From the NCBI GenBank assembly GCA_025765595.1, contig JAIVFH010000015.1:124001-188000 (forward strand): 64,000 nt of DNA, read 5' to 3'. The stretch is from Obelidium mucronatum (Eukaryota > Chytridiomycota > Chytridiomycetes > Chytridiales > Chytriomycetaceae). Positions 1-41,297 of the stretch are shown piece after piece. The position numbers and the translations under genes are program-made. Below the pieces are notes generated by a model that saw nothing but the letters and a program-made list of their open reading frames with translations, searched no databases and had not been told where the DNA came from. Position 1 is the stretch's first letter. Every line of letters begins with the position of its first letter.

Positions 1-64
1 TACTTTTTTTTTTAATTCATAGAAACACTTTAAAAAAAAACACAGACGCCCACAGAATTTCTTT

Positions 65-921
65 TCATGAATGATACCCAGGAGTTGGAGAAGAATACCC
101 TGGCAGTCCCAAACTCGGCCTCCCCACACGTATCATAAAACTATTCCGCCCAACCGTATCGCTTGAAGGCATTCTCATTTCCATATTCACTTCTTCCAAA
201 ACCTGAATGACGAGAATCATTCCAAACACGTGTGTTGGAGCTGAATCCAGTTTCAAAATAGTCTTGATATTCAATGGCGCGTCCTGCTTATTCCATGATT
301 CCAAGCACTTTTCTATTTCTCGAATATACTGTAATAGAGGAGGGGGGTGTCAAATCGACAGAATTCGCAGGAACAGCTTACTTTTGGAGTTCGTTTCGCC
401 AAATACCGACTCAAAAACGCGACCGGAATAATCGGAATCATGATTGTAGCCGAAAGCCCTTGCGCAAGTTTCCCAGACGTTGTCAGCCACATTGCCAAGT
501 CCACGCCCAAAATCAAGTATCCAACAACCAAGAGGTACCAAAGCTGCGAGTAATCATTGAACTCAATGCGGCCGTTTAATTTCTTGTTGATTTCTTGGAT
601 TCTGATGGAGTATACGGAGCTTGGAATCCTTCCGGCAAGGGTGGGGGGTACTGTTTCTGAAAACGTTGACGATGATTGCGTTGGGCATTGGATTGATGCT
701 AAAATACGGTGGCCATCTTGTAAGGCATCAGGATCGATATAGAATAGTGGATGGTTCGGGGCCATTTGTGAAGTAGGTGCAGAAGGTTGCGGTCTGTCCT
801 CAATTGGAATCACAGTATAAGGACGGTCGATGCCTAAACTAGAGCGAGCTGCATGAATTCCATCAGCTATTAAGGCAGCTGGTACCAGCGATTGAGACGG
901 TCGACTGGGTTCCACGGACAT
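65..921 (-). CDS. Two-helix membrane protein, tandem family copy 1
   Basis: Function not recognised. Two exons, 921-382 and 328-65 (267 aa), with a phase-0 GT-AG intron after an Arg-Thr-Pro-Lys motif. The N-terminal third is polar and low in structure. It is followed by a conserved block (SSVYSIRIQEINKKL, then NDYSQLWYLLV), two hydrophobic segments separated by a short loop, and after the intron a soluble domain ending in GRPSLGLPGYSSPTPGY. The same order of parts occurs in the next four genes and at 19726-20691. I chose the ATG at 921 because the neighbouring copies have similarly short leaders; an in-frame ATG at 984 is possible. Topology suggests a membrane hairpin with both tails on the same side (inference). 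Confidence 0.7.
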
Positions 922-1178
922 GAATTTGATTTGGGGGGCAAACTGTGGAAATGAGTGATTTCTGTTTACAAGGAAAAGCCTCACTCGATTCTAAATACTA
1001 AAAAAATTACTTGCAACTTTCTATTTACTTTATTTTTTAAATACTTAAGTCTATAATTCGATCGCATATCTCTTTTGCGTCTCTCCTTTTGTTGCATAAG
1101 ATATATCGCGTCTCTCCTTCTATCTATGAGGCCTTATTCTACAAACTAAATCGCCCTAATCCCCAAGTTACTAATCCG

Positions 1179-2087
1179 TCAATCTTTATAGCTCGGTGCT
1201 GGGCTATTATAAGTCGGTAATCCCAAACTGGGACGACCATATCGAATCATCATACTCCGTCGCCCAACAGTATCGCTAGATGAAAGCCGTTGATCCATAT
1301 TCACTTCCTCAAAGACTTCCAACACAATTTCGATTCCAAAAATCCCGATTCCAGAAGCTTGAATCCTTACACAGGTCTTGATTTTCAAGGGAGCATCCTT
1401 TTCGTTCCAAGTTTGTACGTGTCTTTCAATCTTGCGCACAAACTTTAAGAAAAAAAAAAAAAAAAGAACGAGAGTTGGTGTTAATTTAGCTGGAGTGCGC
1501 GTGGAGTGTGGTGTGTTCCAAGAGCAAATACTCACGTATGGTTTCTGTTTCGCCAGAAAGTAACTCAAAAAGCCGATCGGGATAACAGGTAAGAACAGTG
1601 CCAATCCGATATATATTGGCACCATCGATTCTTTCAGCAAATACACGGCAAGATCCATGGCAACGCAAAAGTACCCGATTATCAGCAGGTACCAAAGCTG
1701 TGCATAATCATTGATTTGCTGCCTTCCACCCAACAGACCATTCAGCTCCTGAATACGAATGGAATATACAGAGCTTGCAATTCTACCCGTAAGGGTTGAT
1801 GGGAGATTGGTTTGAAAGGTTGGCGAATATTCCGAAGTTGGACATCTGATGGATGCAATTATTCGATATCCGTCTTTCACTTCTTCCGGGTTGATGTAAA
1901 AGACTGGATGGTTTGTTACAGCTTCATGATCAGCCGAATTGAGAGTCACGGCGGGGCTTCTTGCGCTTGGTGGCGGGGCACAATGACTCGGAATTACCAG
2001 CGAGGTTGACCTCTCCCCATTGATTCCATCATTTGGAGGAGTAAGGACCAAAGACGGTACTGCACCCTGGTCTACAGTGGTAGGCAT
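1179..2087 (-). CDS. Two-helix membrane protein, tandem family copy 2
   Basis: Closest in appearance to copy 1. Exons 2087-1536 and 1442-1179 give 271 aa. The intron sits at exactly the same place and phase as in copy 1 and has a long T tract before its AG. The intron happens to be open in frame, so a naive reading gives a 302-aa protein with a run of Phe; that run is intron. Conserved parts are an Ile-Ala-Ser-Ile-Arg-Cys motif before the membrane region, SSVYSIRIQELNGLL, NDYAQLWYLL, two hydrophobic stretches, and the tail GRPSLGLPTYNSPAPSY. Function unknown. Confidence 0.72.
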   Translation of the reverse strand: MPTTVDQGAVPSLVLTPPNDGINGERSTSLVIPSHCAPPPSARSPAVTLNSADHEAVTNHPVFYINPEEVKDGYRIIASIRCPTSEYSPTFQTNLPSTLTGRIASSVYSIRIQELNGLLGGRQQINDYAQLWYLLIIGYFCVAMDLAVYLLKESMVPIYIGLALFLPVIPIGFLSYFLAKQKPYVSICSWNTPHSTRTPAKLTPTLVLFFFFFLKFVRKIERHVQTWNEKDAPLKIKTCVRIQASGIGIFGIEIVLEVFEEVNMDQRLSSSDTVGRRSMMIRYGRPSLGLPTYNSPAPSYKD

Positions 2088-2199
2088 TTATGTGCCAATA
2101 TAATGCCTTTTTTGGTGTTAATTTCTCTCGCTTGTATACACCATTCAAGCTGTAAATTGACTGGAAGTGTTTATTCAAAGAATTACATCAAAGAGGCCA

Positions 2200-3043
2200 T
2201 TATGATGAATAACTAGGAGTTGGGCTATGGTATCGCGGTAAGCCGTTTCCGATACTTGGTCTACCGAATCTTGATGCTGTAGAAGGTCGAGGGAGTGTTT
2301 GAGTGGCAAGTGATAAAGAGTCGTCGAGGATATCAATGCTTAGAACCACCCCGAATAGAGTGTTTTGTTTGGGTTGACGATTTAATTCATATCGAATTGA
2401 TTGTCCAGAATCATGATCGCTCCATTGTTTCAAAAGCCCTTCGAGTTCACGAACATGCTGTCAACTCGGCGTTAAGTGTATTTTGGGAAATGCCATGAAA
2501 ACGCACCTTTGGCCGCCTGGAAGTCAAATACCGACAAAGAAACCACAATGGAACTAGCGGCGCAATTAACGCGATATTGTACACTGATGTCGTTGGCAAC
2601 TGAACAGCAATGACCACAGTCACAATCACCAACACATAAACAACGAAAAGCATATTCCACAGGTCCGAATATTCATTAAGATTCCGCCTTTTCTGAAGGC
2701 TCTTATTCGCCTCCTTGATCCTCATGAGAAATACTGTGTTTGCCATTCGTGCTTGTAACCGTGATGGCATCTCCTCTTTGAATTTGCAGACGCCATCTTT
2801 CTGGATGCAATATATTACGGCGATCCGCCTTCGTCGATATTCAAGTTCTTCTTCGATCGCTGTGGAAGCATTGTTGAATCCAGCGAGGGCAAGGCCGCCA
2901 ATAATGGCTGTTGATTGGGTTCCGACCCGAGCATATGGTCTTTCTAAGCCAACGCTTCTGCGAGCCGCAAAAGAAACTCTTTGGGTCTCGTTTGCATTGG
3001 TTGAAGGCGGAAGACTGGGTGGGGTGACAGCGTCGCTTGACAT
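2200..3043 (-). CDS. Two-helix membrane protein, tandem family copy 3
   Basis: Exons 3043-2507 and 2457-2200 give 264 aa; the intron is phase 0 after Arg-Arg-Pro-Lys, as in copies 1 and 2. The ATG at 3043 is used because the codon two positions upstream that would extend the frame is TTG, not ATG. It has the family block (ANTVFLMRIKEANKSL, NEYSDLWNML), two hydrophobic segments, and a shorter C-terminal tail ending GRPSIGNGLPRYHSPTPSY. Function unknown. It lies head-to-tail with its paralogues, about 150 bp from copies 2 and 4. Confidence 0.7.
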
Positions 3044-3153
3044 GGCCAATTTATATTGCTCAATTAAAAGGACGTGAACTGATACGGTATTTTTTAAATA
3101 AGACCAGCCTCACACATCATTCCTGATGAAAAATTCATTTCCTTCAGCAAAGT

Positions 3154-4020
3154 TCAATGAGGTGCGTTTATTTCATAGCTTGGAGCCCGACTTTGATACC
3201 GTGGCAACCCAAAACTCGGTCTCCCAAATCGAGAAACCGTGCTAGTTCTACTCCAATTCAAATCTCCCATAGCTAAATAGTCCACTCCATCATACACGTC
3301 AACTTGCATGGTAGCCTTGAACATTGTCCCGCGAACAGCAGACCATTGCAGAACATAAACCACCCGCTGACTGGAATCTTGGATATTCCATTCGTCCAGT
3401 ATAATTTTCAACTGCTTAATATATTTGGGCGGTCGCCTGGAACAGTAATGGCACACGACCCCAAAGGGAACCAGCCCCGCAACAATCACAATATTCCAAG
3501 GCGATGTATCAGGGAGTTTGAGAGCGGATGAAATAGTCACACCAAGCACAACATACGCCATTAGCAACAAGTACCAGAGGATTGAGTAATCGTTCAGGCT
3601 TCTTAGCCGCTTCGCTGACAGAACCTTGTTCAATTGTTGGATTCGAACAGTGAAAACAGAATTCGCCATTCGGAGTTCCAGTTGTGGTGGGATCGTTTCA
3701 ACGAACTGGTAAATGTTGTTGGTTTTGTGGCATTCAATGGATGCAAGTGGCTCGCGTGGCTCTGTCCTTCGAGCTGCGCTAACTCCTTCTGAAATTCTGT
3801 TATTCGATTCATCAGAAGTCGAGAGTGCTGTAGGTGCAAATGCTACTCTTGGATGGGCACCGCCGCTGCTGCTTCTTGGCGTTCTTGCCGTATTGTCAAT
3901 GGCAAAAGACGATCTTTCAGGTGAATAATTCTCAGATTCCCGGACTGGACTGCCGTTTGCCACTGTTGGATTATCTGCAACGTTGTCTGGTGAAGTTGAA
4001 AGTGGTGGAGCTGGTATCAT
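3154..4020 (-). CDS. Two-helix membrane protein, tandem family copy 4, intronless
   Basis: A single uninterrupted 288-codon frame. Where copies 1-3 have an intron, this copy reads straight through Arg-Arg-Pro-Pro-Lys-Tyr-Ile-Lys with no base added or lost, so the intron is cleanly absent. The family block is present (ANSVFTVRIQQLNKVL, NDYSILWYLLL), as are two hydrophobic segments and the tail GRPSFGLPRYQSRAPSY. The N-terminus is longer and Ser/Pro-rich. Function unknown. Confidence 0.75.
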   Translation of the reverse strand: MIPAPPLSTSPDNVADNPTVANGSPVRESENYSPERSSFAIDNTARTPRSSSGGAHPRVAFAPTALSTSDESNNRISEGVSAARRTEPREPLASIECHKTNNIYQFVETIPPQLELRMANSVFTVRIQQLNKVLSAKRLRSLNDYSILWYLLLMAYVVLGVTISSALKLPDTSPWNIVIVAGLVPFGVVCHYCSRRPPKYIKQLKIILDEWNIQDSSQRVVYVLQWSAVRGTMFKATMQVDVYDGVDYLAMGDLNWSRTSTVSRFGRPSFGLPRYQSRAPSYEINAPH

Positions 4021-4165: not shown

Positions 4166-5115
4166 TCACGACATGTAGCTGGGAGCAGGGCTTTGCAGCG
4201 CATAACTTGGCGCAGGACTTTGATACAAAGGCAGTCCGAAGCTTGGTCTCCCAAACCGCGAAACAGTGCTCACTCTTGTCAAATTCAGGGCTGCATGTCC
4301 TCCCGTCAAATTCGCTTCATCAAACACATCCACTTGTAAGGAAACTTTGAACATTGTTCCGTGCACAGCTCTTCTTTGGAGCACATAGAGAATACGTTGT
4401 TCCGCATCTTGTGAATTCCATTCCACCAAAAGACTCTCTGTTGAAGACAAATTAGAAGTTCGACTTGGAATTAGTCAAAGAAGGAGGAATTACCCATTGT
4501 CTTGATATAACTAGGAGGCCGACGCGCCAAAAAGTGGCATGCATAACCCATAGGAAGTAGTGAAGCAAAAAGAACAATATTCCAAGGCGAATTGGCGGGA
4601 ACTTTCAGCACCATCAGAACCGTGATTCCCAACGCTGTGTAAATAAGCAAGAAAACGTAGTACAGAAGCGCGTAGTCATCAAGGCTCTTTCGGCCTTCCA
4701 AAATCTTGTTAAGCTGCTGCATTCGCATTGTGTAGACTGAGTTTGCCATTCGTAGTTCCAGTTGAATAGGAATGAATTCGTCAAATTGGCAGGTTCCGTT
4801 TGATTGCTTGCACTCTATCGAAGCTAAAGGTAGTGGTGAGGCAGCTGCATTGACGTTCGTAGACCGTGAGGAATCCATGGCTGGGCCACCAGCAATATTG
4901 GCAACAGGGCTAGCTGGTACATCGATGCTCGTCGTGGTTGGAGCAAAGGCAATTCTTCCATACACTCTCTCAGTTCCAACGCTTGGTCGAACAGTGATTG
5001 AGGTTCTCGAGGGGGTGGAGGCAGCCACAGCGGTGTTGGCGACAGTATTAGCTGCCACAAGGGCTTCTGCGTTGGTCAATATTGCAGGGGGCTGAGTTGG
5101 TGGTGTTGCTGACAT
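4166..5115 (-). CDS. Two-helix membrane protein, tandem family copy 5
   Basis: Exons 5115-4494 and 4437-4166 (297 aa) starting at the ATG at 5115. The intron is in a different place from copies 1-3: it lies 16 nt further into the coding sequence and in phase 1, between Lys-Thr-Met and Ser-Leu-Leu. The family block (ANSVYTMRMQQLNKIL, DDYALLYYVFLL), two hydrophobic stretches and a repeated SPAPSY tail are present. Upstream, the frame continues without a stop into a copia-type Gag-integrase ORF, so the true 5' end could be much further away. Function unknown. Confidence 0.7.
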
Positions 5116-7512
5116 GGTTAGTTTGTATCCATACCACTGTTCGAATGCGGTTTTGTTTGTGTCAATAGATGTTGTGTTTTTGGAGCGGTTGTCTGTGTAC
5201 GCATTGTTATTCGCAGTCCAGCCCCAGTATCTGTCATTTACTCCAGTTTCCTTGTGGACTGCACGTATTCTGTCAAATAAAGTTGAGTTGTATCGTTCGA
5301 CTTGGTAGACGTTTTGATGTTGTCCTTGTCCGCTGATTTTCTGTTGGATTCCGAGTCTTTTGAAGATTTCTTCCAACATTCCTGACGTGTTTTCACTTCC
5401 AGCGTCCAATTTCCAGATTCTTGTTTTTCCTGGATGGATACGTTCAACCCATTTGATGAAGTATTCAACATCTTCATAGAGTTGGTCTTTGTGTTTAAAG
5501 TTGAATACAAATCGCATTGTCGTTGCTTGACATGATATTCCCAGTGATCCAACGTTTCCATATGCGTCGGGAATTTTGGCGAAGACCGCGTCACATTGGA
5601 ATACTTCCGCGACTCCATATTTATGGTGACCATCGTTACCATTGTAAGGGTAGCGGTTGATTTTTGCGAGGATGCAACTACTGCAGTGTGGTTTTCTGCA
5701 TGGGCACGTGCCGTCCAGTTTGACGTTGGAGATTTTCATTCCTCGAACAATGTTTTCTGTGGCTTTAACCGCTTCCATATTGAGGTGATTGAAGCGTAAG
5801 TGATGGGTTTGAAGTGTGATCGCTGATGGTGGAATAGAGCTCCGAGCTATGTTTGCTGATTCGGTGGTTGTTGGTTGGTTTGTGTTCTGATGAGTTTCCC
5901 AGTTGGATTCTGAAATAGTGACGTGAGAGCACGCGGGTTCTATGTTAATATTGGGACAACTCACATAATGTGAGTTGTCGAGATCCACCCCCATTTGGTC
6001 TGTGCGTGAATCAGCCCTCGTTGGCTTCACCGCTGTGGGGGTTTCACTCAGGCAACTCGAAGGTGGAGCACAACTTCCATCTTCACCACTCGGGGTTTCC
6101 AGGTTTGTTGACGTTGATCCTGATTTTTTCTGATGGGTGTTTTGCTGTTGTTGTGGTGGTTTCTTTTGTGGAGAGGCAACTTGCGCATATGTTTGCTGCG
6201 GTTGTGGTGGAGGTGTTGTATTTCGTTGGATTGGTGCTGCTGTTTCATTTGGTGATGGCAGTGGCGGTGGTGGTGGACGTGGTGTGTCTGTATTTTTGGT
6301 TTCCGTTGGTGTTGTTGTTTTTGTTGGTTTTTCATTTTTGGCTGGAATTGTCACTTTGAGGATTTCGGGCAGAGTTTCATCGTCGCTTTCGTCATTGGAG
6401 AGGTTTTGGAGAGGAGAGTAATAATTGGTAGATGGTTCGGCTTTATTGTTGTTTTGCTTTTCATTCCACTTATCCAATCTTCCTTGCGACTTTGCCTTCT
6501 TGAAATCGTTGCATGGGAGCATGTGACCATAGAGCTTACAGGTTTCGCATTGGTTGCAGATCTTGTCGCCTCGCTTGAGAAAGTAGCAGTCAATTGCATG
6601 GCACTTGTCGCACGGGTGCATTTCACGTGTTCCGCCATCTTGCTTGGTTGCAGGCTTTCCTTCCGTTGGTTTTTGTTCAGTGAGGTGGGCCTTTTCCTTC
6701 TTCTTTGGCGAGGTTGGGCGGCCTTCCTTTGGCCAGTTGGTGATCAGGATGTAGATGGTTTCGTCTGTCGTGATCTCGTTTCTTTCAGTGGCTGCTTTGC
6801 GGTACAGGTTGTACAGGTCCTTGAAGTATCCCTTGATGTCCCCGAGAGTGGCGTTGTTGTTTCCGTTGGTTTTGAATTTGCTGACGTGCTCTTGGTTTTC
6901 CATAGTGAAACGAGCCGAAATTTTGTTGTAAATTTCAGGTTCTTCAATGGTCATCCCATTGGTGCGCATTTCAAAGATAAGTTCTTCGGCACGGATCAAG
7001 TAGTCCTGGTAAGTCTCCCAGTTGTATTGCTTGATGTCCTCCCATTTCTTTTGTAGTTCTGGGTGAATGTCATTCATTTCACGATTGAGCATGGTGTTGA
7101 GTTGGTCCCATGCCTCATTTGCATTTCCAGCATTGACAATGGATTTGGTAAGCTGGTCATCGATGGAGCCTCGAAGGATTTTCAAGATTGCTGAGTCGGT
7201 GGACTTGTTCTGGAGGATGGCAGTACGATGTGCCTGTTTTTCTGCAAAGGTAGCGGTAGCTCCAGCCTTGATCATGTCAATGGTTGGGTCCTCGTATCCA
7301 AGGATTAAATGGTCCTTGAGGTCCGTAATGTCAGTGGCCGTATTGTCCTTGACAGGTTTTCCTGGACTGGAATTGCTTGTTCTGTACTTGAAGGAGAGGG
7401 CATAGTAGCCTGTTTTTGGTTGGTGTGCATGGACTTCCCCCATGAGATTGGATTTCCATTGGGCGTAGAAGGTGCGGGAGTTTGCCCGTGTGAGAGGCGT
7501 AAGCGTCGTCAT
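5116..7512 (-). CDS. Gag-integrase polyprotein fragment (copia type)
   Basis: Open from the ATG at 7512 to the junction at 5116 with no stop codon. The N-terminal part looks like a copia Gag. Around 6500-6620 there is a Cys/His-rich stretch (CDKCHAIDC, CNQCETC, YGHMLPC). Near 5640-5790 an HLRFNHLN...C..C..C region matches the Gag-pre-integrase zinc domain. The integrase core follows, with acidic residues in FQCDAVF, WKLDAGSEN and NVYQVERYN, i.e. the D-D-35-E pattern. The frame ends in WYGYKLT and continues directly into the Met of the host-type gene. In a complete element, reverse transcriptase would follow. Confidence 0.78.
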
Positions 7513-7563
7513 GGGTTCGGTTGTTTTAAGGTTGCTCTTTTGGTGGGCAGAAGACGTCTTAAT

Positions 7564-7703
7564 CTGAGGAACGGTGTGTGTGTGAGCGATAGGGAACACA
7601 ACACAGAAGAATCAGAGCAAGAAGTGTAGTTTTATTATACCTGAGGAACGGTGTGTGTGTGAGCGATAGGGAACACAACACAGAAGAATCAGAGCAAGAA
7701 GTG
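7564..7703. repeat. 63-bp direct tandem duplication
   Basis: Two identical 63-bp copies at 7564-7626 and 7641-7703, separated by 14 bp. They contain a (GT)n stretch. Read on the minus strand each copy ends in CCTCAG, which resembles a 3' splice site, followed by different sequence (GTATAAT... or ATTAAG...). They lie just upstream of the copia Gag start. Confidence 0.9.
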
Positions 7704-8039
7704 AAGAAACACAAAGGGGAAAACGAAACAATATATAGTAAAATATTTGGGGGGTGGTTGAGTATGTGAAACCCGGAATAAATAACTAATGTTTCAGAAT
7801 ATTGATTGTGTTCAACATTTCCAAAATTGCTCGTAAGTGTAAAGATTATTCTGATGATTTTCAGAGATTAAAACCTGTGTGTAACGCTGATATAATCAAC
7901 TCAACAACCTTTCGCATTCGCACTCAGCGTCGTGCTTGATCGACTTTATTGATCGACTTAAATGATTTAGCTAGTATTAAACAATATGTTGACTTGGGCT
8001 TGTGATGAGCACAAGAAAAAAAGCGTGAAAACCAACTCG
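7704..8039. other. Intergenic region between copia remnant and SYLF gene
   Basis: 336 bp with no convincing coding sequence. On the minus strand a TATATA-like stretch near 7733 could serve the retroelement. A short direct repeat of GATCGACTT occurs at about 7939-7961, before the SYLF gene. An in-frame ATG at 7986 precedes the start preferred for the SYLF protein. Confidence 0.5.
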
Positions 8040-9612: not shown

Positions 9613-9621
9613 ATATTATTC
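9613..9621. repeat. 9-bp target-site duplication, left copy
   Basis: ATATTATTC directly abuts the outer end of the left TIR; the identical 9-mer is at 14627-14635. Confidence 0.93.
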
Positions 9622-10022
9622 TAGGCTCAGTGTCAGCCTTGCTCTCGGAACTCTCAAAAAGAAAAAATAAAAAAATTTCCATTTTCGAGCCCCAGCGAGA
9701 AGGCTGATCGACAATCTTCAAAACCCGCCAACTCCATTTTTTGTAGCGGAAGAACCAGCGGATGGATCTTCCTCAAATTCGGCACAGGTGTAGTTCAACT
9801 TATTTTATTAGTTTTGGCGGCCTTTTGGCCACGTGTTTCTGACAGTTTCCGTTTGAATAGTGGGGCCGCGTTTCAGACGTCTCCAGCGGACTCAAAACAC
9901 GCTATATGCTCCTATGTCTCGTTTTTTTTTCAGTATATCCAATATATCAACATATTCTATTACCGTTCGACACGTTGATTTGACCTGGAAATCATTTTTT
10001 GTTCTGTCCGGAAACACATCAA
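9622..10022 (+). repeat. Left terminal inverted repeat of transposon
   Basis: Matches the reverse complement of 14226-14626 over all 401 bases by eye; identity is lost immediately inside (ACATCAACTC versus ACATCAATGT) and outside. It contains an ATG at 9914 that opens in frame into ORF1, and a T-tract plus CAG that resembles a 3' splice site. Confidence 0.92.
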
Positions 10023-12547
10023 CTCAACTGAAATCAACAGTTGCATTTATGATACGCGACAGCCGCGGGATGTTTCGGGGCAAGGCCGACCCTTTGACTC
10101 AAGATCCAAGCGACGTCGGTACTGAGTCCGAAACTTCACCTGAACGTAGCCACAGCCGCAAAAAGGCATCAGTTGGACTGGAAACTCCTCTTTCCAATCA
10201 ACGCCCAACAAGAAACACATCAAATCCATTTTCGACCCATCAAATGGGTTGCCCAATCCCGTCCATGAGTTTGGAAGAGAGATTGAACGATTCTCGGGAT
10301 GCCAATTTAGGATCATCCTTCACAACTCATTTACGTGCAACTGGACAATCAGAGCATTCTGCAAAATTCCGTGCAGCAATGGCAGCGGTAAAATCGGCGG
10401 CTGCACAAAAAGCAAGCTTCAAATTTCCGGAAATTGAGGCTCGAGTGGCCATGTTGTCCATTGATGACCAGCTGCAACTGTTGCAGAATCTCTTCAACGC
10501 TTTGCCTCTTCCAAAGCAACGTGATTTTCTTTTGAATAATGCATCTGCTCTCTCGAAAATCGAAATCAAAGAATGCCTGAAGGTTGATATTGCTGCTCCA
10601 ACCGTTGTTAACCGCTTGAATGTCAGTGTGCTTCTCGAATCTTGGGAGGCCAGTGCGCCCTTTATCTCGTCTCTCATCGGAATGCTTGTTGGACATGAAA
10701 AACCAAAGCTTATTCTCATCCTTGGAATCATTCTTTTTTCTGCATCTCAGAAGTACAATCTTCTGCAGTCGGAGATTGGTTTGATCTTGTACTCTAATGG
10801 CGCTTCGCAGAATCTCGTAAAACTAATGAATAGTATGGGTGTATCAGTTGGAAATGATACAATTCTTGACCGGCTTGTTGACATGAAACAGCAAGCTCTC
10901 GATCTGATTCCAAAAACATTCCGTTCAAATAGTATTCTCTTGATCCACGACAATGTGGAGCGATACAACAAGACATACCAAAAGACTCAAGGAAACCAAA
11001 ACCAGCTTATGTCCCAAACGCTGCGTGGATTCATTCTTATCACACATGATCCAGCAATGCTACAACCCGCTGTGCCAATTAAGCCGCCATCACCATCCAA
11101 TATTGTTGCCGACGCTTGCGAGTTGGCCTGGTATCATTCTCAGACTTTTAATGAATTGTACAATCTCATCATCAAAGAATGCACGGAGTTCAAAGACCTA
11201 TCTTCAAGGCACAACCATCCTAACCGCCCCCATAGACCAACTGGTATCCTGCCTTTGCCCATTATGGACGAACAAGAAATGACTACCAATGGATCCATTC
11301 GGATTGGGGAGCAATACACTAAAGACTTCAATATTCCGCACAACAAATGTATAAAAGTCCCTTTATTTGGAGATTTGGGGACAGTCACATCTGTTCGCTC
11401 TGCAATCAATGAGCGCAAACATGAGTGGGGTAGCTCTGATGTTGAGAAGCTGCAACACCTGATGCCCATCTATGGAGATTTTCATCTTGGAATGGCCGTT
11501 GATAAAGCCCAAGTCTCCGCCATGGGCTGGGAGCCATCCTTTCCAGGAACTATTGCTTGGTTTGCTCGAATTCAAAACAAGAATATCAATGCCAAGAAAG
11601 CGACATTCTACGAGATGCAAGATGTGCTAAACGGCTCCCTTAGCGCCTATGTTGTTGCACTTGCGGACTCTATTACAGTGGATTACGCCAATGACCTGTC
11701 GGAACTGCAGTCAGGTAGTCAAGAAAAGCTGGACTACATTGTGAATACTCTCCTGCTTCATGTTAACAGAGCAGTCTATCAATTGAAGCCGATTGTAAAC
11801 AAAGGAAAGCGTGCTACGGAGTATTCTCCTTTGGAAACCCACCCTTTCCGCAACTACATGCTGCAATTTATACGCTTGCGACTTCAATCATTGGTCTTCT
11901 ACGATTGCATTCGCTATGGTGACGGAGAAGGCGTGAATATTATGCATAAGCTGTTCTTGCCATTGCTCAAGAGACACTCCAAAAAATACGCACAGGGAAC
12001 TGTGCGTCAGTTGTGGGATTTATCAATGATGACTCCTCGGGAACGAGGAATATGCGTACAAAACGCGTTTTTAAACTCAAAAGGACTTGTGAACTCCTTT
12101 TTTCCCAATGACTTGGGAATGGAGCATGAAGTCCTTGCCATGAAGTCAGTTCAATCCAAAGCAGGAAGTAACCGCAACTGGAATCATACCCAAACAATTT
12201 CTATGACTGCATCTCATGTCTGTAGCTTGACTAGCTCTCTTTTTGACCACTTGGACATTCCAAGAAGACGAGCATATCATCACGACGTGGATACAAAAAA
12301 AGACAAGGAGACCATGATGTTTGATGTCAAATCTCAGATGAATCGAGTACAAGGCGACTTCAAAGTGGGTGAATATGCCTTTAAACCTGTGCTGGAAGTT
12401 GGTTACAAGGAGTTAGTCAAGGATGGATATATTGCTCGGCAACTGAAGAACTTTTTTTGTGGATCTGGGGATGAGGATGATATTGAGGAGTTAGATGAAC
12501 GGGTGTTTGACGAGGATGGTGTTGAAATTTTTGATTTAACGAAATAA
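9914..12547 (+). CDS. Transposon ORF1, candidate transposase
   Basis: One uninterrupted frame; the first ATG lies inside the left TIR (9914), and an ATG at 10049 just inside the TIR is an alternative start. From either ATG the protein is about 830-880 aa. No standard transposase motif is evident. Candidate catalytic or conserved stretches are LIHDNVERYNK (about 10940), PLFGDLGTV (about 11360) and MPIYGDFHLGM (about 11465), spaced as acidic clusters with a nearby His. From memory these recall the fungal DUF6589 family, but I cannot verify that. The C-terminus is very acidic. As the only non-helicase ORF in a complete TIR element it is the best transposase candidate (inference). Confidence 0.7.
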   Translation: MSRFFFSISNISTYSITVRHVDLTWKSFFVLSGNTSTQLKSTVAFMIRDSRGMFRGKADPLTQDPSDVGTESETSPERSHSRKKASVGLETPLSNQRPTRNTSNPFSTHQMGCPIPSMSLEERLNDSRDANLGSSFTTHLRATGQSEHSAKFRAAMAAVKSAAAQKASFKFPEIEARVAMLSIDDQLQLLQNLFNALPLPKQRDFLLNNASALSKIEIKECLKVDIAAPTVVNRLNVSVLLESWEASAPFISSLIGMLVGHEKPKLILILGIILFSASQKYNLLQSEIGLILYSNGASQNLVKLMNSMGVSVGNDTILDRLVDMKQQALDLIPKTFRSNSILLIHDNVERYNKTYQKTQGNQNQLMSQTLRGFILITHDPAMLQPAVPIKPPSPSNIVADACELAWYHSQTFNELYNLIIKECTEFKDLSSRHNHPNRPHRPTGILPLPIMDEQEMTTNGSIRIGEQYTKDFNIPHNKCIKVPLFGDLGTVTSVRSAINERKHEWGSSDVEKLQHLMPIYGDFHLGMAVDKAQVSAMGWEPSFPGTIAWFARIQNKNINAKKATFYEMQDVLNGSLSAYVVALADSITVDYANDLSELQSGSQEKLDYIVNTLLLHVNRAVYQLKPIVNKGKRATEYSPLETHPFRNYMLQFIRLRLQSLVFYDCIRYGDGEGVNIMHKLFLPLLKRHSKKYAQGTVRQLWDLSMMTPRERGICVQNAFLNSKGLVNSFFPNDLGMEHEVLAMKSVQSKAGSNRNWNHTQTISMTASHVCSLTSSLFDHLDIPRRRAYHHDVDTKKDKETMMFDVKSQMNRVQGDFKVGEYAFKPVLEVGYKELVKDGYIARQLKNFFCGSGDEDDIEELDERVFDEDGVEIFDLTK

Positions 12548-12570
12548 TAATTGCGTTACTTTTTATTTGG

Positions 12571-14226
12571 TCAATTCGGCATTTTCTTTAACTCCTTCAA
12601 ATATGCAACAACAAGCGTTTTTGCTTCAATTTTCCATTTGCCTTCGAAACTATCAATCCAATCAACAAATGAGTCAAGAACCACACCCTTCAGATCTCTG
12701 CAAATATCATCGATGACTTCCTGTGGGAATCTGCAAAGTCCCAACTCCCATGGTACTCCAATCAAACAGCTTTCCCGCCATTCTGACAGCTCCGAAAACA
12801 GTTTGATAGATTCTTCAACTGTCAATCCACATTGTGAGCGAATGTGCCTTTTTTGTTTGAGCAATGGAGTGTTGGAAACATATGGAATCAAGCCAGACTG
12901 GGCTATAGTTGGTTTACGAGACTCACAAGCATCACAGCACCGGTCATTTGGTACCGGATCAAGCCCCTTAAAGTACCCCAAAAGAACCTTCCTTCGGCAA
13001 ACTGGATTTGAAGTTGAAGGTGTTGATGCAAAGAGAGAGTACACCTCTCTGTTGGTGGCCTTACTCTCCTTCAACGCCACAGAATCGCTTTTCTTGTCTG
13101 ATAAATCCTGGAGGGAGTGGAAGAAGAGACAACGACTGGGCAATCCATCCCTTCCAGCCCTCCCAAATTCCTGGGCAGCATTGCAAAATGATACTGGAGT
13201 CTTGTAATGAACAACAGTTCTAATTGAAGGATGGTCCAAGCCCTGGCCCAGCATTTGAGTGGTGCAAATAACCTTCAATTGATTAGGGTTTTCTCGAATC
13301 AGGCCTAGTACTGCGTTTTTGTGGGATTCCGAAGACAAGGCAGTTAAGTGAGTGAGCACGGGGGGGTAATTGGAGATGCCAGCTGAAAGGTACGTGTAAA
13401 TCTTGTTCAGTGTGGTCTTTGAATCGCAGAAGAGGACCAGAACAAATACACTTGGATCAAAAGTTTTTGTTTCGAGAGCTATTTTGATGAATCCAAGATC
13501 CTTTTGCATTTCCTTCCGCTCCTGGACATCGTAAAACAAGTTTGGCCGATCCACACACCCAATAATTTCGACAAATCCTGGTCTCAATCTCAGTCGATTG
13601 CACATCTTGTTGTACATTGACTTTGGAACCGTTGCTGAAGCTGCAATGAAAGGAATATCCTTGAAATGAACACGAATGTTCTCCAGATTCAAATAGTCTT
13701 GTCTCCAAACATCTCCAGCGTTGGTCATTTCGTGCCATTCGTCTACTGCAATCGCGAACGCAAATTTTTGAATGACTTTGAGTATCTTCATGTCCTTTCC
13801 TCCAAGAATACTTGTTAAAAATTCCGGAGTCATCCACACAACATCAACATTTCCACTCTCAAGCAATTCCAGTGTTGAAGAATTCCCAATCTTGTTCATA
13901 TCCAATGATCCAAAGGCTGCCGGTCGAAGGGGTATGTCTGATTTCTCCAAATTTGCCATTTGGTCAATCATGATTGCCAAGAGTGGAGATATAATGAACA
14001 AAACCGATTTTCGATCACCAGAATCCACCATTCTTTGCATGTGAGCCAGCAGAGACAGGTAAAAAGTGTACGTCTTGCCTCCGCCGGTCCTTTGAATCAA
14101 TACGCAGTCTTTCCCATTCAACACAGCCTTGACGCAAGCAATTCGATAGTCACGAGGAGCACTCTCGTAGTACTTGGCGGTTAGCAGGATGCAGACTTCC
14201 AAGATGGGATCATGTTCTAGTGACAT
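12571..14226 (-). CDS. Transposon ORF2, RecQ-type DNA helicase
   Basis: About 551 aa from the ATG at 14226, which is the innermost base of the right TIR; the frame also extends upstream through the TIR. Helicase motifs in order: Walker A QRTGGGKTYTF (about 14070-14095), motif II VDEWHEM (about 13727-13750, DEWH rather than DEAH), motif III SATVPK, motif V TQMLGQGLDHPSIRTVVHY, motif VI QEFGRAGRDG (about 13150). A RecQ zinc-binding signature follows (CRRKVLLGYF, then CCDACE). No HRDC or separate nuclease domain is seen. RecQ enzymes unwind DNA 3'-5' and process recombination intermediates. Here it is part of a transposon and may help excision, strand processing or repair of the donor site (inference). 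Confidence 0.9.
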   Translation of the reverse strand: MSLEHDPILEVCILLTAKYYESAPRDYRIACVKAVLNGKDCVLIQRTGGGKTYTFYLSLLAHMQRMVDSGDRKSVLFIISPLLAIMIDQMANLEKSDIPLRPAAFGSLDMNKIGNSSTLELLESGNVDVVWMTPEFLTSILGGKDMKILKVIQKFAFAIAVDEWHEMTNAGDVWRQDYLNLENIRVHFKDIPFIAASATVPKSMYNKMCNRLRLRPGFVEIIGCVDRPNLFYDVQERKEMQKDLGFIKIALETKTFDPSVFVLVLFCDSKTTLNKIYTYLSAGISNYPPVLTHLTALSSESHKNAVLGLIRENPNQLKVICTTQMLGQGLDHPSIRTVVHYKTPVSFCNAAQEFGRAGRDGLPSRCLFFHSLQDLSDKKSDSVALKESKATNREVYSLFASTPSTSNPVCRRKVLLGYFKGLDPVPNDRCCDACESRKPTIAQSGLIPYVSNTPLLKQKRHIRSQCGLTVEESIKLFSELSEWRESCLIGVPWELGLCRFPQEVIDDICRDLKGVVLDSFVDWIDSFEGKWKIEAKTLVVAYLKELKKMPN

Positions 14227-14626
14227 TGATGTGTTTCCGGACAGAACAAAAAATGATTTCCAGGTCAAATCAACGTGTCGAACGGTAATAGAATATGTTG
14301 ATATATTGGATATACTGAAAAAAAAACGAGACATAGGAGCATATAGCGTGTTTTGAGTCCGCTGGAGACGTCTGAAACGCGGCCCCACTATTCAAACGGA
14401 AACTGTCAGAAACACGTGGCCAAAAGGCCGCCAAAACTAATAAAATAAGTTGAACTACACCTGTGCCGAATTTGAGGAAGATCCATCCGCTGGTTCTTCC
14501 GCTACAAAAAATGGAGTTGGCGGGTTTTGAAGATTGTCGATCAGCCTTCTCGCTGGGGCTCGAAAATGGAAATTTTTTTATTTTTTCTTTTTGAGAGTTC
14601 CGAGAGCAAGGCTGACACTGAGCCTA
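14226..14626 (-). repeat. Right terminal inverted repeat of transposon
   Basis: Reverse complement of the left TIR. It supplies the upstream part of the RecQ frame and ends 31 bp before the start codon of the TFIIIC subunit gene. Confidence 0.92.
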
Positions 14627-14635
14627 ATATTATTC
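14627..14635. repeat. 9-bp target-site duplication, right copy
   Basis: ATATTATTC, identical to 9613-9621, immediately outside the right TIR. Confidence 0.93.
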
Positions 14636-34662: not shown

Positions 34663-36285
34663 ATGATTCGAGTCAAGAAAACCCAAGTCAGAAACGCGTT
34701 TATCGCATTTGGCATCCTTACAATTGTCCTCATTCGGGCGCTTATGTTTTCCGGTTTCGAATCTCGGAGAGCTTTGCATGGAACTGATGCTGTAAGCGGA
34801 GAGCACCTTGTTGATGTGGCCCAAGTGCACTTATTGGACTACTTGCACTCCGTGTCTGATTCGCGTTCCAAAGATGAATTTAAATTGAGGTATTGTCTTT
34901 CTTACTGCATAGGCTGCCGTATGCGTTGCAGCGTTTCGAATGCTGACTCTTTACATTGTAGTGATTTGAGGGCCAGCTGGAAACACGCTCATAGCTATGC
35001 CCAGTCTCTCGAGACTGTAGACTATAACCGGGCAGACTTCTCTGAGCTGTCTAGACGCGTTCGCGCCGTCTACATTGCATCTCTTCTCAAAGATGGGGCG
35101 GGATCTTTGTATTCTGAAGAAGAATCTGTCATCGCCTTTCATAACAGACTGGCTGGAATATTGGAAACGCAAGCATCATGCCTGTTTCCTTTCGTATCTC
35201 CGCACTTTAAATCTATTCCGAAGCTCCTTGAATCGTTTGCTTCACTACCAGAGTCCTCAATTGGAATCGCTTTCACGTGTGGCACTGGCCAATTCTACGT
35301 CACATATCATGCCATTCTATCCCTACGCAAGATATTTTCCTTGCACACGCCAATTGAAGTATTTTATGCTGGCGATTCCGATCTCCATCCGTCCATGGTC
35401 AAAGCTTTCAACCTCCTTGAAAATGTCAAAGCCATCAATCTTCTCACCTACTTCCCGACCGAAGCCACCGAATTTTCATCTTGGTCGCTTAAGCCTTTTG
35501 TTATTCTGGCTTCATCGTATCGAACCGTGCTCTTCATGGACTCGGATATCCTATTCTTCAACAACCCATTAAATGTACTGGAATCAAAGTTGTTCAAGAA
35601 AACCGGCCAGCTTTACTACCACGACCGCACAAACAATGAACAAAAATTTGTTCCTGGCACCGAATGGTTCCGATCCCTGCTTGTGGAACCCTCCAAGTCG
35701 GCAGCATCTCTTAGATACCTGACTGGTCGCACGTCCCACGAAATGGACAGCGGATTCATTGCCCTGGATAAATCTAGACCAGGCAACTTGTTTTCCCTCC
35801 TTCTCGCCTGTCGAATGAACTCCAAAATAGAACGCGAACAGACTCTGTACAAGTACACTTATGGAGACAAAGAGTCATTCTGGTTCGCAAATGAGCTTCT
35901 ACGCGTTCCGTTTTCTTTTAGTCCCCATTTTGGTAGTGTTTTGGGGACTTTGAACAAGGAAAGGAGCCAGAATGGGTTTCAGGTAGTTTGTGGGGTCTGG
36001 TTGCTACAGCTGGATGAATCAGGTGTTCCATTCTGGTGGAATGGTGGCGGTGTTTTGAGGGATCGAGGAGCGACTCCTCAAAAAGGATTTGAGTTTCTCG
36101 AATTTGAAAAGATGGCGTTTGATTTAGATATTCCTGGCAAAAGGATTGCCAACCAATGGTCACCAGGTCATTGTTTCAATCAAACAGAAGAATATGTGAG
36201 GGATTTGAGCAACGAAGAGAAGACTTTGCTTCAAAGATATAAGGAATTGTACGTAACATCGGTGAAGGAAGTTGTTTTGGAGTGA
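34663..36285 (+). CDS. GT71/MNN1-type glycosyltransferase, tandem copy 1
   Basis: Exons 34663-34889 and 34962-36285, 516 aa. A short basic N-terminus and one hydrophobic helix (FIAFGILTIVLIRALMF) suggest a type II Golgi membrane anchor. The catalytic domain has SIGIAFTCGTGQFYVTYHAI, PIEVFYAGDSDL, SWSLKPFVILASSYRTVLFMDSDILFF with a DxD metal/nucleotide-sugar motif, GQLYYHDR, HEMDSGFIALDK and YGDKESFWFANE, which fits the MNN1 alpha-1,3-mannosyltransferase family. These enzymes extend mannose chains on secreted glycoproteins. First of four head-to-tail copies. Exact donor and acceptor sugars cannot be read. Confidence 0.86.
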   Translation: MIRVKKTQVRNAFIAFGILTIVLIRALMFSGFESRRALHGTDAVSGEHLVDVAQVHLLDYLHSVSDSRSKDEFKLRYCLSYCIGCRMRCSVSNADSLHCSDLRASWKHAHSYAQSLETVDYNRADFSELSRRVRAVYIASLLKDGAGSLYSEEESVIAFHNRLAGILETQASCLFPFVSPHFKSIPKLLESFASLPESSIGIAFTCGTGQFYVTYHAILSLRKIFSLHTPIEVFYAGDSDLHPSMVKAFNLLENVKAINLLTYFPTEATEFSSWSLKPFVILASSYRTVLFMDSDILFFNNPLNVLESKLFKKTGQLYYHDRTNNEQKFVPGTEWFRSLLVEPSKSAASLRYLTGRTSHEMDSGFIALDKSRPGNLFSLLLACRMNSKIEREQTLYKYTYGDKESFWFANELLRVPFSFSPHFGSVLGTLNKERSQNGFQVVCGVWLLQLDESGVPFWWNGGGVLRDRGATPQKGFEFLEFEKMAFDLDIPGKRIANQWSPGHCFNQTEEYVRDLSNEEKTLLQRYKELYVTSVKEVVLE

Positions 36286-36379
36286 CAAGACTTTTATGTA
36301 ATAATAATAAAATTCCTCACCACGCGTCACCACGCGTCACCAGTTCCACCGACTTTTTTTTTATCTCTCACAGTCGACT

Positions 36380-38152
36380 ATGACGATACATCGAAGATTA
36401 TTTCGGGTCTTAATTACTGGAAAGAAAGCCAGTCTAGCTGGGATTCTTCTTCTTTTCCTCAGCACGTTAGCCTACAATGCGCAATATCTTCGGAGAGTCT
36501 TTCATTTAGACTTGGCATGTTCCGATGGATCGAATGATACAGTTTTAACGCGATCTTTTGAAGCCCATGTAATTCACAAGGTAGTGACAACATCTGGAGT
36601 TCAACCACACCGATGACACTCATGCCGTTACTATTTAACGCAGGAATATAAAGATCCACTGCATGATATCGATGTGGCGCAAGTTCGGATTTTGGATTGG
36701 TTGCAAACTGGACTTCAGTTGACAGAGAGGTTTGCCTTTACTTCAAAAAACCGAACAGCGCCACTTGAGTTTTAATCATTCATGCAATTCGATATTCACA
36801 TTTTAAGTGACCTTCAGTCAAACTTCTCCCTTGTCCATTCATATGCCACTTCTTTAAAGACCGTGGAATATAATCGTGCAAACTTCAGGCAACTAGCCAG
36901 ACGAGGAAGAGCTGCGTTTATATCGTTTTTACTGAAGGAGAATCTCACAGGATCCAACTTGCTTTCATTATTGGAAGATTCCGATGGCACTATACAACAA
37001 CAGCTCAACCAGATTCTCGAGCAACAAACTGAGTCCCTTTTCCCTTTCGTAACATCCACATTCAAATCTATTCCTGAGATGTACGCCTTATTTGCTTCTC
37101 AAGATCAAAACTCATTTGGGATCGCTATCACATGTGGCACAAATCAGTTCTACATTACGTATCACGTTATTCTATCGCTTCGCCAAATATTCGGAATTGA
37201 TGATCCCATTGAAGTATTCTATGCGGGAGACAATGACCTCCGACCCAAAATGGTTGAAGCATTCAACAATCTTACAAATGTAAAAACAGTAAATCTTCTT
37301 GACATCTTTCCACAAGAGGCATCAGAATTCTCATCTTGGTCACTAAAACCATTCGCCATACTAGCTGCTTCATTCAGAACAGTCATGTACATGGACACGG
37401 ATGTTCTCTTTTTCTCCAACCCCCTCCAAGTCCTGCAATCGGATTTATTCAAAAACACCGGACAGTTGTATTACCACGATCGATCAATGCTTGACGGAAG
37501 AATAGAAGACGGTCCAATATGGTTCAAGTCTCTCCTTACAACTCCTTCGCCATCAGCAGCATCCCTCCGATACTTGAATGGGCACACATCGCACGAAATG
37601 GACAGTGGGTTCATGGTCTTTGATAAAAGCTGGCCGGGCATCTTTTTTTCCCTTCTCCTTACCTGTCGAATGAACTCGAAAATCGAACGCGAAAAAACTC
37701 TCTATGAAAACACGTATGGAGATAAAGAATCCTTTTGGTTCGCAAATGAGTTCCTCAGGGTGCCCTTTTTATTCAACCCGTATTTCGGGGGCACTTTGGG
37801 GTATTTCAATGAAGAAGAGAGTCGAAAGGTTCCTGACCATTACGTTATTTGTGGGATTTGGTTGCTACAGTTGAATGAGTTTGGGGACCCATTCATGTGG
37901 AATGGCGGTGGGGTCTTGAAAGATCGAGAGGCGACGCCGTATATGGGGTTCGATTTTTTGGACCATGAGGGATTAGCGTTGAGTGTCGAAGGGTTTGAGG
38001 AGGATCGGAGGGGCGAATATCTTGAAGACTTTTGTTTTCGACAAAACAATACTCTAGTCTGGGAAGTATCAGAAGAGAATAGGGCCATCATCGACGAATA
38101 CAGAGTATTGTATTTAACTGATGTTTCAAAGTTGAGACTTGGGGTGAAATAA
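36380..38152 (+). CDS. GT71/MNN1-type glycosyltransferase, tandem copy 2
   Basis: Exons 36380-36580, 36644-36729, 36808-38152; 543 aa. It has one more intron than copy 1, in the stem region before EYKDPLHDIDVAQV. The catalytic domain repeats the family pattern: FGIAITCGTNQFYITYHVIL, PIEVFYAGDNDLRP, FRTVMYMDTDVLFF (DxD), GQLYYHDRS, HEMDSGFMVFDK, YGDKESFWFANEF. N-terminal helix AGILLLFLSTLAY is the likely membrane anchor. Closest in appearance to copy 3. Confidence 0.86.
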
Positions 38153-39014
38153 ATTCAGGAGGGAGCACACTATTGTTGAGACCACGGCAAATATAAATTG
38201 GTAAAAAGAATTGTTAAGTATGTACATCTTTAAATATTCCCTGTTATTCCTCTGATCTACCCCAAAAGTGGCAAAAAAAGTCACTGCCACTGTCCCCTGC
38301 CAGCGTCTTCGGCGCGATCTCTCAGTATGGAATCAATGGTCAAAAGGGTATATCTTTAGAGCAAATGCTAAAGCTGGACAGCCCCGACAGGGCAACGGTA
38401 TTCAGCCCTCTCATCTCAATTCAAGCCAATGCCCCTCCTCATCGAGAATGCTGCACTCAGGTCACCCGCATGTTTCAACTAAAATCGCGTTTCGCGCTGA
38501 TCTTGCAGCTTCCCTACACCACACCTAACTGCTTCCTTTCATGTTAAGCAGAACGCCGTAAAATCAATAAATCCCGGACGGTTATTGACCAGACAATTCA
38601 ATACGCCCTCTGTGATTCTGTGCAACTAAATGCTTCGCTCCTGACATGCCGCCAGTAGGAAACTTTTCCGTACTTTAGATACGCTATTCCGTCCAGTCTC
38701 CGTCCAGTCATGAACTGGTTTTTCTTTTTCTTCAGAAGTCACGTGATTTCAATCATCATCGGCGGGAATTAACCCGGGAAGGACCCATTATTCTTCAGAA
38801 TAAGTGTGTGATAACACCTCATAGATCCAATGCATTGCACGACTGTTTGCACTCCAAATTTTTTGAAGGGTGACTGAATAGCCGAACGATCTACAGTAAT
38901 CATACGGTTGGGGCGCGACCAAAAAAATCGACCAACAAAAAAAACAAACAAACACGCAGAACGCGTCATTCATAGAACTATCAAGATAACAGCGATATAG
39001 CCAATTCGGATATT
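38153..39014. other. Intergenic region between GT71 copies 2 and 3
   Basis: 862 bp with no coding sequence I can support; short open frames here have no recognisable pattern. It probably holds the 3' UTR of copy 2 and the promoter of copy 3. Confidence 0.5.
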
Positions 39015-40841
39015 ATGCTTCTGCCTCAAAAGATATTAAGACCCATCTTACGGCCAAATATCCGAAGCATTGCTGTGCTGGGTCTATTCCTCTTCATCGT
39101 GACAGGCGTCCGCTTTGTGACAATACCTCATGAATTTGTCAAAGTATCCGACTTCTCATCGACTGCTCCCCTGGATGCCAATCACAATTTGAAGACAAGT
39201 GATTATGCGACATTCAACTTGACGTCCAACTCTCAGTTGGATTTTCTTTCCCTTTATGACGCCACTTTGCATGAGCAAATCAAATTTGACGCGACAAATG
39301 ATGAATTCTTGAGAGATAGGCTGCGGAAAGTAGACGAAGCGCAAGTTATGGTTTTGGATTATCTAGAGGCTGTGAGTTCAGCAAGGCACACAGCGAAATC
39401 AACAAGGTTTGTCCCCGGCCACTCCGGCCAAACCATTTTTGAAGTGGACAAAAACTACTTTCTAAGCGCGGTGTATATTAAATTCTTTTGATCATGCATT
39501 AGATATCTCAAGTCAAACTTCTCCCTCGCCCATTCCTATGCTACATTATTGGACGATGCAGAATATGATCGGGCCGACTTTACAGAGTTGGTCAGACGAG
39601 GAAGAGCCGCATACATTGCTTTTTTGCTAAAGCAGAATTCCAAAGAATTGTACTCGTCTGTATCAAACGTTCGGTTTAAAACCTTCAAACATCAACTCAA
39701 CAAAATCCTTGCCCAACAAACCGCATCCCTCTTTCCATTCCTACCTCCCGCTTTTGAGTCTGTTCCGCAGATGCAAAACTTTTTTTCTTCCCAGGATCCT
39801 TCCTCATTTGGGATCGCCATCACTTGTGGCACACCTCAGTTCTACATCACTTATCATCTCATTCTATCTCTTCGCCAAGTGTTTGGAATAGATGCTCCAG
39901 TTGAAGTGTTTTATGCGGGAGACACGGACCTCCGTCCGGAAATGGTTGAAGCATTCAACAACCTTACAAATGTGAGGACCGTCGACCTACAACAAGTTGT
40001 TCCACAAAACCCAGCAGAATACTCGTCCTGGACGCATAAACCCTTTGCTATAATCGCTGCTTCCTTCAGAACAGTCATGTATATCGATGGGGATGTATTA
40101 TTCTTTACAAACCCACTGCACGTTCTCGAATCAGAGTTGTTCAAGAAGACGGGACAGCTGTATTACCATGATCGGTCGTTTTATGATGGCAGAATAATTG
40201 ACGGTCCAGAGTGGTTCAAGTCTCTCCTGACAAGTCCTTCTCCGTCGGCGTCGTCGCTGCGGTATTTGAATGGAGGCACGTCGCATGAAATGGATAGTGG
40301 GTTCATGCTTCTTGATAAAGGCCGTCCCGGGATCTTGTTCTCGCTTCTCCTTGCCTGTCGAATGAATATGAGAACTGAACGCGATAATACTCTCTATTTA
40401 AAGACTTATGGAGACAAGGAGTCCTTTTGGTTTGCGCATGAGTTTTTGCGAGTGCCGTTCTCGTTTAGCCCGTATTATGGGGGTACGTTTGGAAATATTA
40501 ATAATGATGAAGCTCGGCCGGATGAAGGGCGGTCTGCTGTTTGTGGGATTTGGTTGTTGCAGATGAATGAAACTGGTGCTCCATTCATGTGGAATGGAGG
40601 CGGTATCTTGACGGATCGAAGAGCAACGCCTAAATCAGGGTTTCAGTTTCTGGATTTTGAAAGCTTGGCGTTGGGGTCGAATGGGAAAGGGGATGTTCCG
40701 TCGGGGGAATATTTTGGGTGGTTTTGTTTTAGGCAAGATAGTTCGCTGATTTGGCGTTTGACGAAAGAGCAAAAGGACCTTTTGGAACGATATTTATTAA
40801 TTTATAGGAATGATGTTACGGCCTTGGGGTATTTGGAATAA
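39015..40841 (+). CDS. GT71/MNN1-type glycosyltransferase, tandem copy 3
   Basis: Exons 39015-39406 and 39503-40841, 576 aa. The longest stem of the four: after the anchor helix (IAVLGLFLFIVTGV) about 70 polar residues precede the conserved DEAQVMVLDYLEAV. The catalytic domain has FGIAITCGTPQFYITYHLIL, VEVFYAGDTDLRP, FRTVMYIDGDVLFF (DGD as the DxD motif), GQLYYHDRS, HEMDSGFMLLDKGRPG, YGDKESFWFAHEF. The single intron is at the position shared by all four copies, just before the SNFSLAHSYA-type block. Confidence 0.86.
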
Positions 40842-41297
40842 ATCTATAATATACTTAGGATATCAGTGCTGTTTGGGAATAATCACACAAAAGATAATAG
40901 ATGAAGTAAAACAGAATAGTGGTTGCTGACCGTAGTGAGGGAGATGACGATTCTTGTAATTTGTTGACCTTTTTTTTCTAATTTTAGAAACTTTTCCTTC
41001 CAGTTATCGGCAAGTGAATTACCCACTTTGATATCCTTTATCTCTCGGATTTGATTCAGTTGCATTTCGCAGCTCTTATGAATGAGGAGACATTGGGGGC
41101 TGTTGTGTTGGAAGAGGTTGGGATGTTGTGACAGGTTTCCATCGGACTAGTGCCAGTATCCACCTCGATATATTGATTTCTAACTGCTAGACCATTTCTT
41201 TCCGGACGAAATAGGTGTCCAAAAAGACAGTGTTGACAAAAGTGGACGACTGAATCAATTTAGCCCGAACGTCACCCACTCAAAAATCGCAATTAAT
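40842..41297. other. Intergenic region between GT71 copies 3 and 4
   Basis: 456 bp; nothing coding recognised. Confidence 0.5.

Follow-up and report, generated by a model that had tools for sequence, protein, structure and literature searches.

A terminal inverted repeat transposon of probable AcademH affinity carrying its own RecQ-family helicase in Obelidium mucronatum

When a transposon with terminal inverted repeats (TIRs) encodes a RecQ-type helicase, is the helicase a regular component of the element, and to which superfamily does such an element belong? The question is raised by an element of 5,005 bp (positions 9622-14626, ends TAGGCTCAG...CTGAGCCTA) located in the window analysed here, i.e., the whole stretch of 64,000 nucleotides from contig JAIVFH010000015.1 of Obelidium mucronatum (positions 124,001 to 188,000). 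A preliminary annotation made from the letters of the window, hereafter the sequence-only reading, had delimited the locus at 9613-14635, which proved to be exact, target site duplications (TSDs) included, and had proposed that it could represent an undescribed superfamily. Our analysis indicates that the element is very probably an autonomous and recently active DNA transposon that represents, within the Academ superfamily, a new AcademH family.

The 401-bp TIRs, the perfect 9-bp TSD and the two convergent, intact open reading frames (ORFs) noticed by the sequence-only reading were all confirmed by the comparison of the arms and by the open frames. The two TIR arms are identical at 401/401 positions, and the repeat tool reported them as 408 nt at 99%. 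The genes encoding ORF1 and the helicase (ORF2) are arranged tail-to-tail, the ATG used for ORF1 lying 26 bp past the left TIR and that of the helicase at the inner edge of the right TIR. Because the two starts lie close to the inner ends of identical TIRs, each gene has the same 401 bp upstream. The protein lengths given in Table 1 are counted from these chosen ATGs, and the actual start codons may differ because both frames run open into the TIR: the ORF1 frame is open at 9857-12547 (896 codons), i.e., back into the left TIR, and the helicase frame is open up to 14391.

Across the shared TIR (9857-10022 and 14226-14391) ORF1 and ORF2 are open in the same frame, with a possible common N-terminus of 36 residues from an in-frame ATG (MSRFFF...SGNTS) or 54 residues from an upstream GTG. 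This shared reading frame may be due to chance or may reflect an unusual N-terminus common to both proteins.

Table 1. Features of the transposon, with positions in the window.
Feature	Position	Strand	Evidence
Left 9-bp TSD, ATATTATTC	9613..9621	.	same letters as 14627-14635
Left TIR, 401 bp, begins TAGGCTCAGTGTCAGCC	9622..10022	+	arm comparison and repeat tool
ORF1, 832 aa from ATG 10049, DUF6589 protein, putative DDE/D transposase	10049..12547	+	
DUF6589 (PF20231) match, ORF1 residues 369-744	11153..12280	+	E 1.8e-36
ORF2, RecQ-family helicase, 551 aa from ATG at TIR edge	12571..14226	-	
Right TIR, 401 bp	14226..14626	-	arm comparison and repeat tool
Right 9-bp TSD, ATATTATTC	14627..14635	.	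same letters as 9613-9621

The genome (48.3 Mb in 694 contigs) was searched with the left TIR, yielding 34 matches, from which 12 further full copies were picked and compared with the window copy; with 34 matches and 13 full copies, the element is not a chance arrangement. Ten of the 13 copies are identical over 5,007 bp, and two more deviate from this majority by a single base each; in the window copy, 21 alignment columns depart from the majority type. Both genes are open in all 13 copies, and a perfect 9-bp TSD of varied sequence flanks 11 of them, so that the additional copies with the same ends, ORF pair and TSDs, which the sequence-only reading had recommended looking for, do exist. Compared with the majority type (locus L009), the window copy carries four synonymous and three non-synonymous codon changes in ORF1, and six synonymous and two non-synonymous ones in ORF2, while about 78% of random single-base changes are expected to be non-synonymous; these small numbers suggest that both genes may have been under selection.

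There is also an element-free homologous site. The 5' flank of the window element matches C230:1005-1597 at 93%, and on the same contig the 3' flank follows at 99%, the element itself being absent. The junction is imperfect, with mismatches and a gap of 3 bases in the AT-rich target, and C230 could be either an allele or a duplicated region.

The element encodes a helicase of the superfamily II / RecQ type. Its Pfam matches above cut-off are DEAD (E 1.4e-18), Helicase_C (E 1.8e-8) and, marginally, ResIII; the RecQ_Zn_bind match falls under the cut-off (17.1 vs 25 bits), and the NCBIfam model recQ_fam gives an E value of 2.2e-51, yet under its curated cut-off (175.1 vs 219.8 bits). In the PDB, 38 distinct sequences matched with E values no higher than 1e-10, the best being BLM (4.9e-29) and bacterial RecQ (1.5e-28). 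The motifs DEWH and QEFGRAGRDG and a Cys cluster, landmarks by which the sequence-only reading had recognized a RecQ-type enzyme, are readable in the translation.

ORF1 had been described as an unassigned protein of 830-880 aa. The size was right (832 aa from the ATG), but the protein can be assigned to a Pfam family, DUF6589, with 126.2 bits against a cut-off of 27, and no other Pfam family was matched up to E 1. The Pfam description of DUF6589 gives no function. When ORF1 alone was compared with the protein database, none of the 8,000 scored candidates reached E 0.001, and with an alignment of the ORF1 proteins of six families (see below) none of 8,000 reached E 0.01; a profile search of the PDB with the same alignment gave no match up to E 10, and a scan of viral contigs gave two pattern matches and no relatives. 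The residues that are invariant in the six families include D301 (in DN), D442 (in GD), F478-H479, D625, D688 and E692. Judging from conservation only, D301, D442 and E692 are a candidate catalytic triad, and ORF1 is a putative DDE/D transposase.

To what extent the helicase is a constant part of this kind of element can be answered with its relatives in the same genome. Further elements were found at C5:459-464 kb and C5:591-597 kb (one family), C66, C93, C180 and C5:189-193 kb, with a fragment at C179. These five divergent families carry the same convergent transposase-helicase pair, with both frames open in the C5:459 kb/591 kb family and in C93. Inverted repeats of 324-467 bp at 96-99.8% are present in five of the six further elements (lengths as given by BLAST, which may include duplicated target bases), and the C5:191 kb element has an inverted repeat of only 87 bp at 87%. 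Four of the six have 9-bp TSDs, read by eye (AACTGAAGT, ATTCTTAAT, TAACTCTAT and ACAAAAACC). Among the 15 TSDs available, 11 from the window family and these four, the first base is a purine (A or G) in 14 and the ninth a pyrimidine (C or T) in 11, a weak target preference. The left end of the C66 element (L029, C66:110382-110415) contains two direct tandem copies of the 17-bp terminus TAGGCTCAGTGTCAGCC.

The genome contains at least 22 DUF6589 matches, and for 20 of these a helicase match adjoins in convergent orientation; one of the 20, on C179, is a fragment under the DUF6589 cut-off whose helicase match contains stops. The two matches with no adjoining helicase both belong to a broken old copy on C182, where they form the halves of a palindrome; the helicase half of this copy is situated about 20 kb from them. 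Unrooted trees of the transposases and of the helicases of the six families have the same topology, with moderate support in the transposase tree (Shimodaira-Hasegawa-like approximate likelihood ratio test, SH-aLRT, 93-95; ultrafast bootstrap, UFBoot, 79-85) and three of four nodes weak in the helicase tree (SH-aLRT 44-59, UFBoot 51-57; the fourth 97.5/94). The helicase tree has a single outside clade made of partial sequences and thus cannot test whether the element helicases form one clade, so that the correspondence of the two trees is an agreement with, and not a proof of, joint descent; it is compatible with, without demonstrating, a single ancient gain of the helicase and its subsequent inheritance together with the transposase. 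The occurrence of the same pair in five divergent families and the matching tree shapes make the helicase a constant component, in support of the sequence-only reading of a complete TIR transposon that carries its own RecQ-type helicase. The opposite pattern, copies that have the TIRs but never the helicase, was not found: TIR pieces without a helicase are short remnants or have ends that are not fully defined.

A helicase-encoding lineage of Academ, AcademH, was reportedly presented by Kojima in 2020 (Mob DNA 11:15), from animals and fungi according to the title. In the passages of PMC10045372 that deal with these lineages, AcademH has a helicase and TSDs of 9 or 10 bp, whereas AcademX, which belongs to the same superfamily, has a nuclease in the place of the helicase and TSDs of 3 or 4 bp, the difference in TSD length being related there to that between helicase and nuclease. 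The window element agrees with the former, being a helicase-encoding DNA transposon with TIRs and 9-bp TSDs. AcademH is also cited as a source of helicases in a passage of PMC10799480, where the phyla named are Basidiomycota, Ascomycota and Mucoromycota; the window family, by comparison, lies in a genome that has the flagellar PACRG gene family and fungal transcription-factor domains. In the part of PMC6416283 (2019) devoted to fungal Academ copies, 81% (1,568/1,938) have recognizable protein domains such as the DEAD/DEAH helicase PF00270 and recQ_fam, similar to those of the window helicase. With AcademH, these Academ copies and KolobokH in print, the view that RecQ helicases are not a normal component of such elements is not supported, and the same is true of the undescribed superfamily, AcademH with its helicase and 9-10-bp TSD having been published in 2020. 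The combination of a RecQ helicase with a TIR transposon is already published: the kind is known, and the family is new. The sequence-only reading had also named membership of ORF1 in a known superfamily routinely encoding RecQ as a finding that would speak against its own proposal, and this is very probably the case, ORF1 being placed by TSD and helicase, not by transposase comparison.

Several observations weigh against this assignment. The element is attributed to its superfamily by the length of the TSDs, the type of helicase and the group to which the host belongs, and ORF1 is set beside Academ by description only. DUF6589 is mentioned in none of the papers searched for it, and the AlphaFold model of ORF1, made from the single sequence without an alignment, has a mean predicted local distance difference test (pLDDT) score of 35.7, too poor to judge an RNase H-like fold. 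Within the window family, two copies (L015 and L018) have no matching TSD. Among the relatives, the C66 element has no matching TSD, the ends of the C5:191 kb element could not be defined, and the C180 family starts with TTGTCTG instead of TAGGCTC; moreover, the transposase frame is broken in C66, C180 and C5:191 kb, by introns or decay, and the helicase match of C180 is in two pieces, again by an intron or decay.

The explanation that best survives beside an AcademH family is that of a superfamily distinct from Academ, with its own DUF6589 type of transposase and an independently acquired RecQ. The absence of a function from the Pfam description of DUF6589 and of any mention of it in the papers searched, the lack of relatives of ORF1 in the PDB and protein-database searches and the purely descriptive link of ORF1 to Academ would be in line with it; nevertheless, TSD length, helicase type and fungal host all agree with AcademH as presented in the published passages, and we consider a distinct superfamily improbable. 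A KolobokH element is more unlikely still. In the passages of PMC9587614 on this lineage, KolobokH encodes a RecQ helicase and occurs in fungi only, as would suit the window element, and one rhodophyte Kolobok has its RecQ on the complementary strand; but Kolobok TSDs are the 4-bp TTAA and its termini 5'-RR...YY-3', whereas the window family has TAGG...CCTA termini, varied 9-bp TSDs in 11 of 13 copies and a helicase encoded by a separate convergent gene. KolobokH is thereby largely refuted, and AcademH is preferred over it because the TSDs are 9 bp long. That the helicase is a mere passenger, i.e., a host RecQ gene caught by chance in an ordinary TIR transposon, is hardly credible, for even if RecQ helicases are ordinary host genes and RecQ-like matches occur beyond these elements (e.g., on C33 and C71), the helicase is present in 13 intact copies and five divergent families, the element helicases share 24-36% identity among themselves against 17-24% with the C33 and C71 pieces, and their tree has the shape of the transposase tree, with the weak nodes and partial outside pieces mentioned above.

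Two other candidates were rejected. Helitrons are also eukaryotic transposons with a helicase, but they have neither TIRs nor TSDs according to the literature, and the window element has both. The fungal telomere-linked RecQ helicases treated in passages of PMC4522978 are subtelomeric genes, as opposed to a helicase placed within an interspersed TIR element.

For an AcademH-type element the following mechanism can be proposed. Each TIR would supply the same promoter. ORF1, acting as a DDE/D transposase, would bind the TAGGCTC ends, excise the element and join the ends to the target DNA with a 9-bp stagger. The RecQ helicase encoded by the element would act in cis with the transposase to unwind DNA, either at the element ends or in the strand-transfer gap, and may stand in the position of the nuclease of the sister lineage AcademX.

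The comparison of the copies also bears on how the TIR arms remain identical. When the window copy is set against L009-L020, it differs from the majority type by three changes in the TIR, namely two substitutions and one change in the length of an A-run, and all three are found in both arms at mirrored positions; L010, on the other hand, has a change in one arm only. Therefore, the two arms do diverge by mutation and subsequently regain their identity. The simple explanation of this homogenization is gene conversion from one arm to the other, and a replicative step is possible as well. A more speculative idea, to which we give little credence, is that transposition, or the repair that goes with it, becomes partly replicative through the RecQ helicase, maybe by fold-back copying between the long TIR arms that would keep the arms identical while the family diverges; transposase and helicase would then be one inherited two-protein machine expressed from two identical promoters.

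Besides the full copies, the genome contains a variety of remnants. Allowing up to one mismatch, the 17-bp terminus was found 50 times, and its reversed control not once. The matches at C1 (two), C20, C219, C470, C558, C81 and C271 are not similar to the window element beyond the terminus and may belong to other or non-autonomous families. C33 is a helicase remnant, C137 and C412 have TIR pieces only, and C128 contains a related broken copy whose left flank is the same as that of the old C182 copy. Locus L021 (C182:35000-44900) is a large palindrome (33-3436 and 4305-7706, arms of 3.4 kb at 99.6%) that contains two head-to-head halves of this old copy, the other half lying on C182 at a distance of about 17-18 kb. 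The halves overlap by 5 bp where the copy is broken (element positions 1958-1962), which looks like the insertion of another element at this point; both outer ends of the old copy carry CCAAAAATC, as read by eye (loci L021, L022 and L023). At L034 (C376), a 144-bp piece (517-660) with two inverted TAGGCTCAGTGTCAGCC ends resembles a miniature non-autonomous derivative, and no matching 9-bp duplication was found in its flanks.

Elsewhere in the window, four open frames assigned to Mannosyl_trans3 (PF11051) lie in tandem at 34663-42975 on the plus strand, and there is a 1,046-aa open frame with no Pfam match at E 0.001 at 4471-7611 on the minus strand.

PACRG marks flagellated cells and the Fungal_trans domain marks fungi. 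The host genome has 6 ParcG (PACRG) and 30 Fungal_trans matches; both are absent from 14 control genomes, all of them prokaryotes and thus uninformative on other eukaryotes. The matches point to a zoosporic fungus as the probable host; if this is correct, the range of AcademH is wider than the phyla that PMC10799480 lists in the passage cited above.

With DUF6589, a Pfam domain described without a function, now tied to a putative transposase encoded by a transposon, fungal DUF6589 proteins taken for host gene products become suspect as transposon-derived. The part of PMC6416283 on Academ states that fungal copies are frequently annotated as host genes. The passages on AcademH in the literature cited here leave the role of the helicase in transposition unsettled, and an intact, low-divergence family of AcademH type together with five divergent relatives in one genome provides material for testing it.
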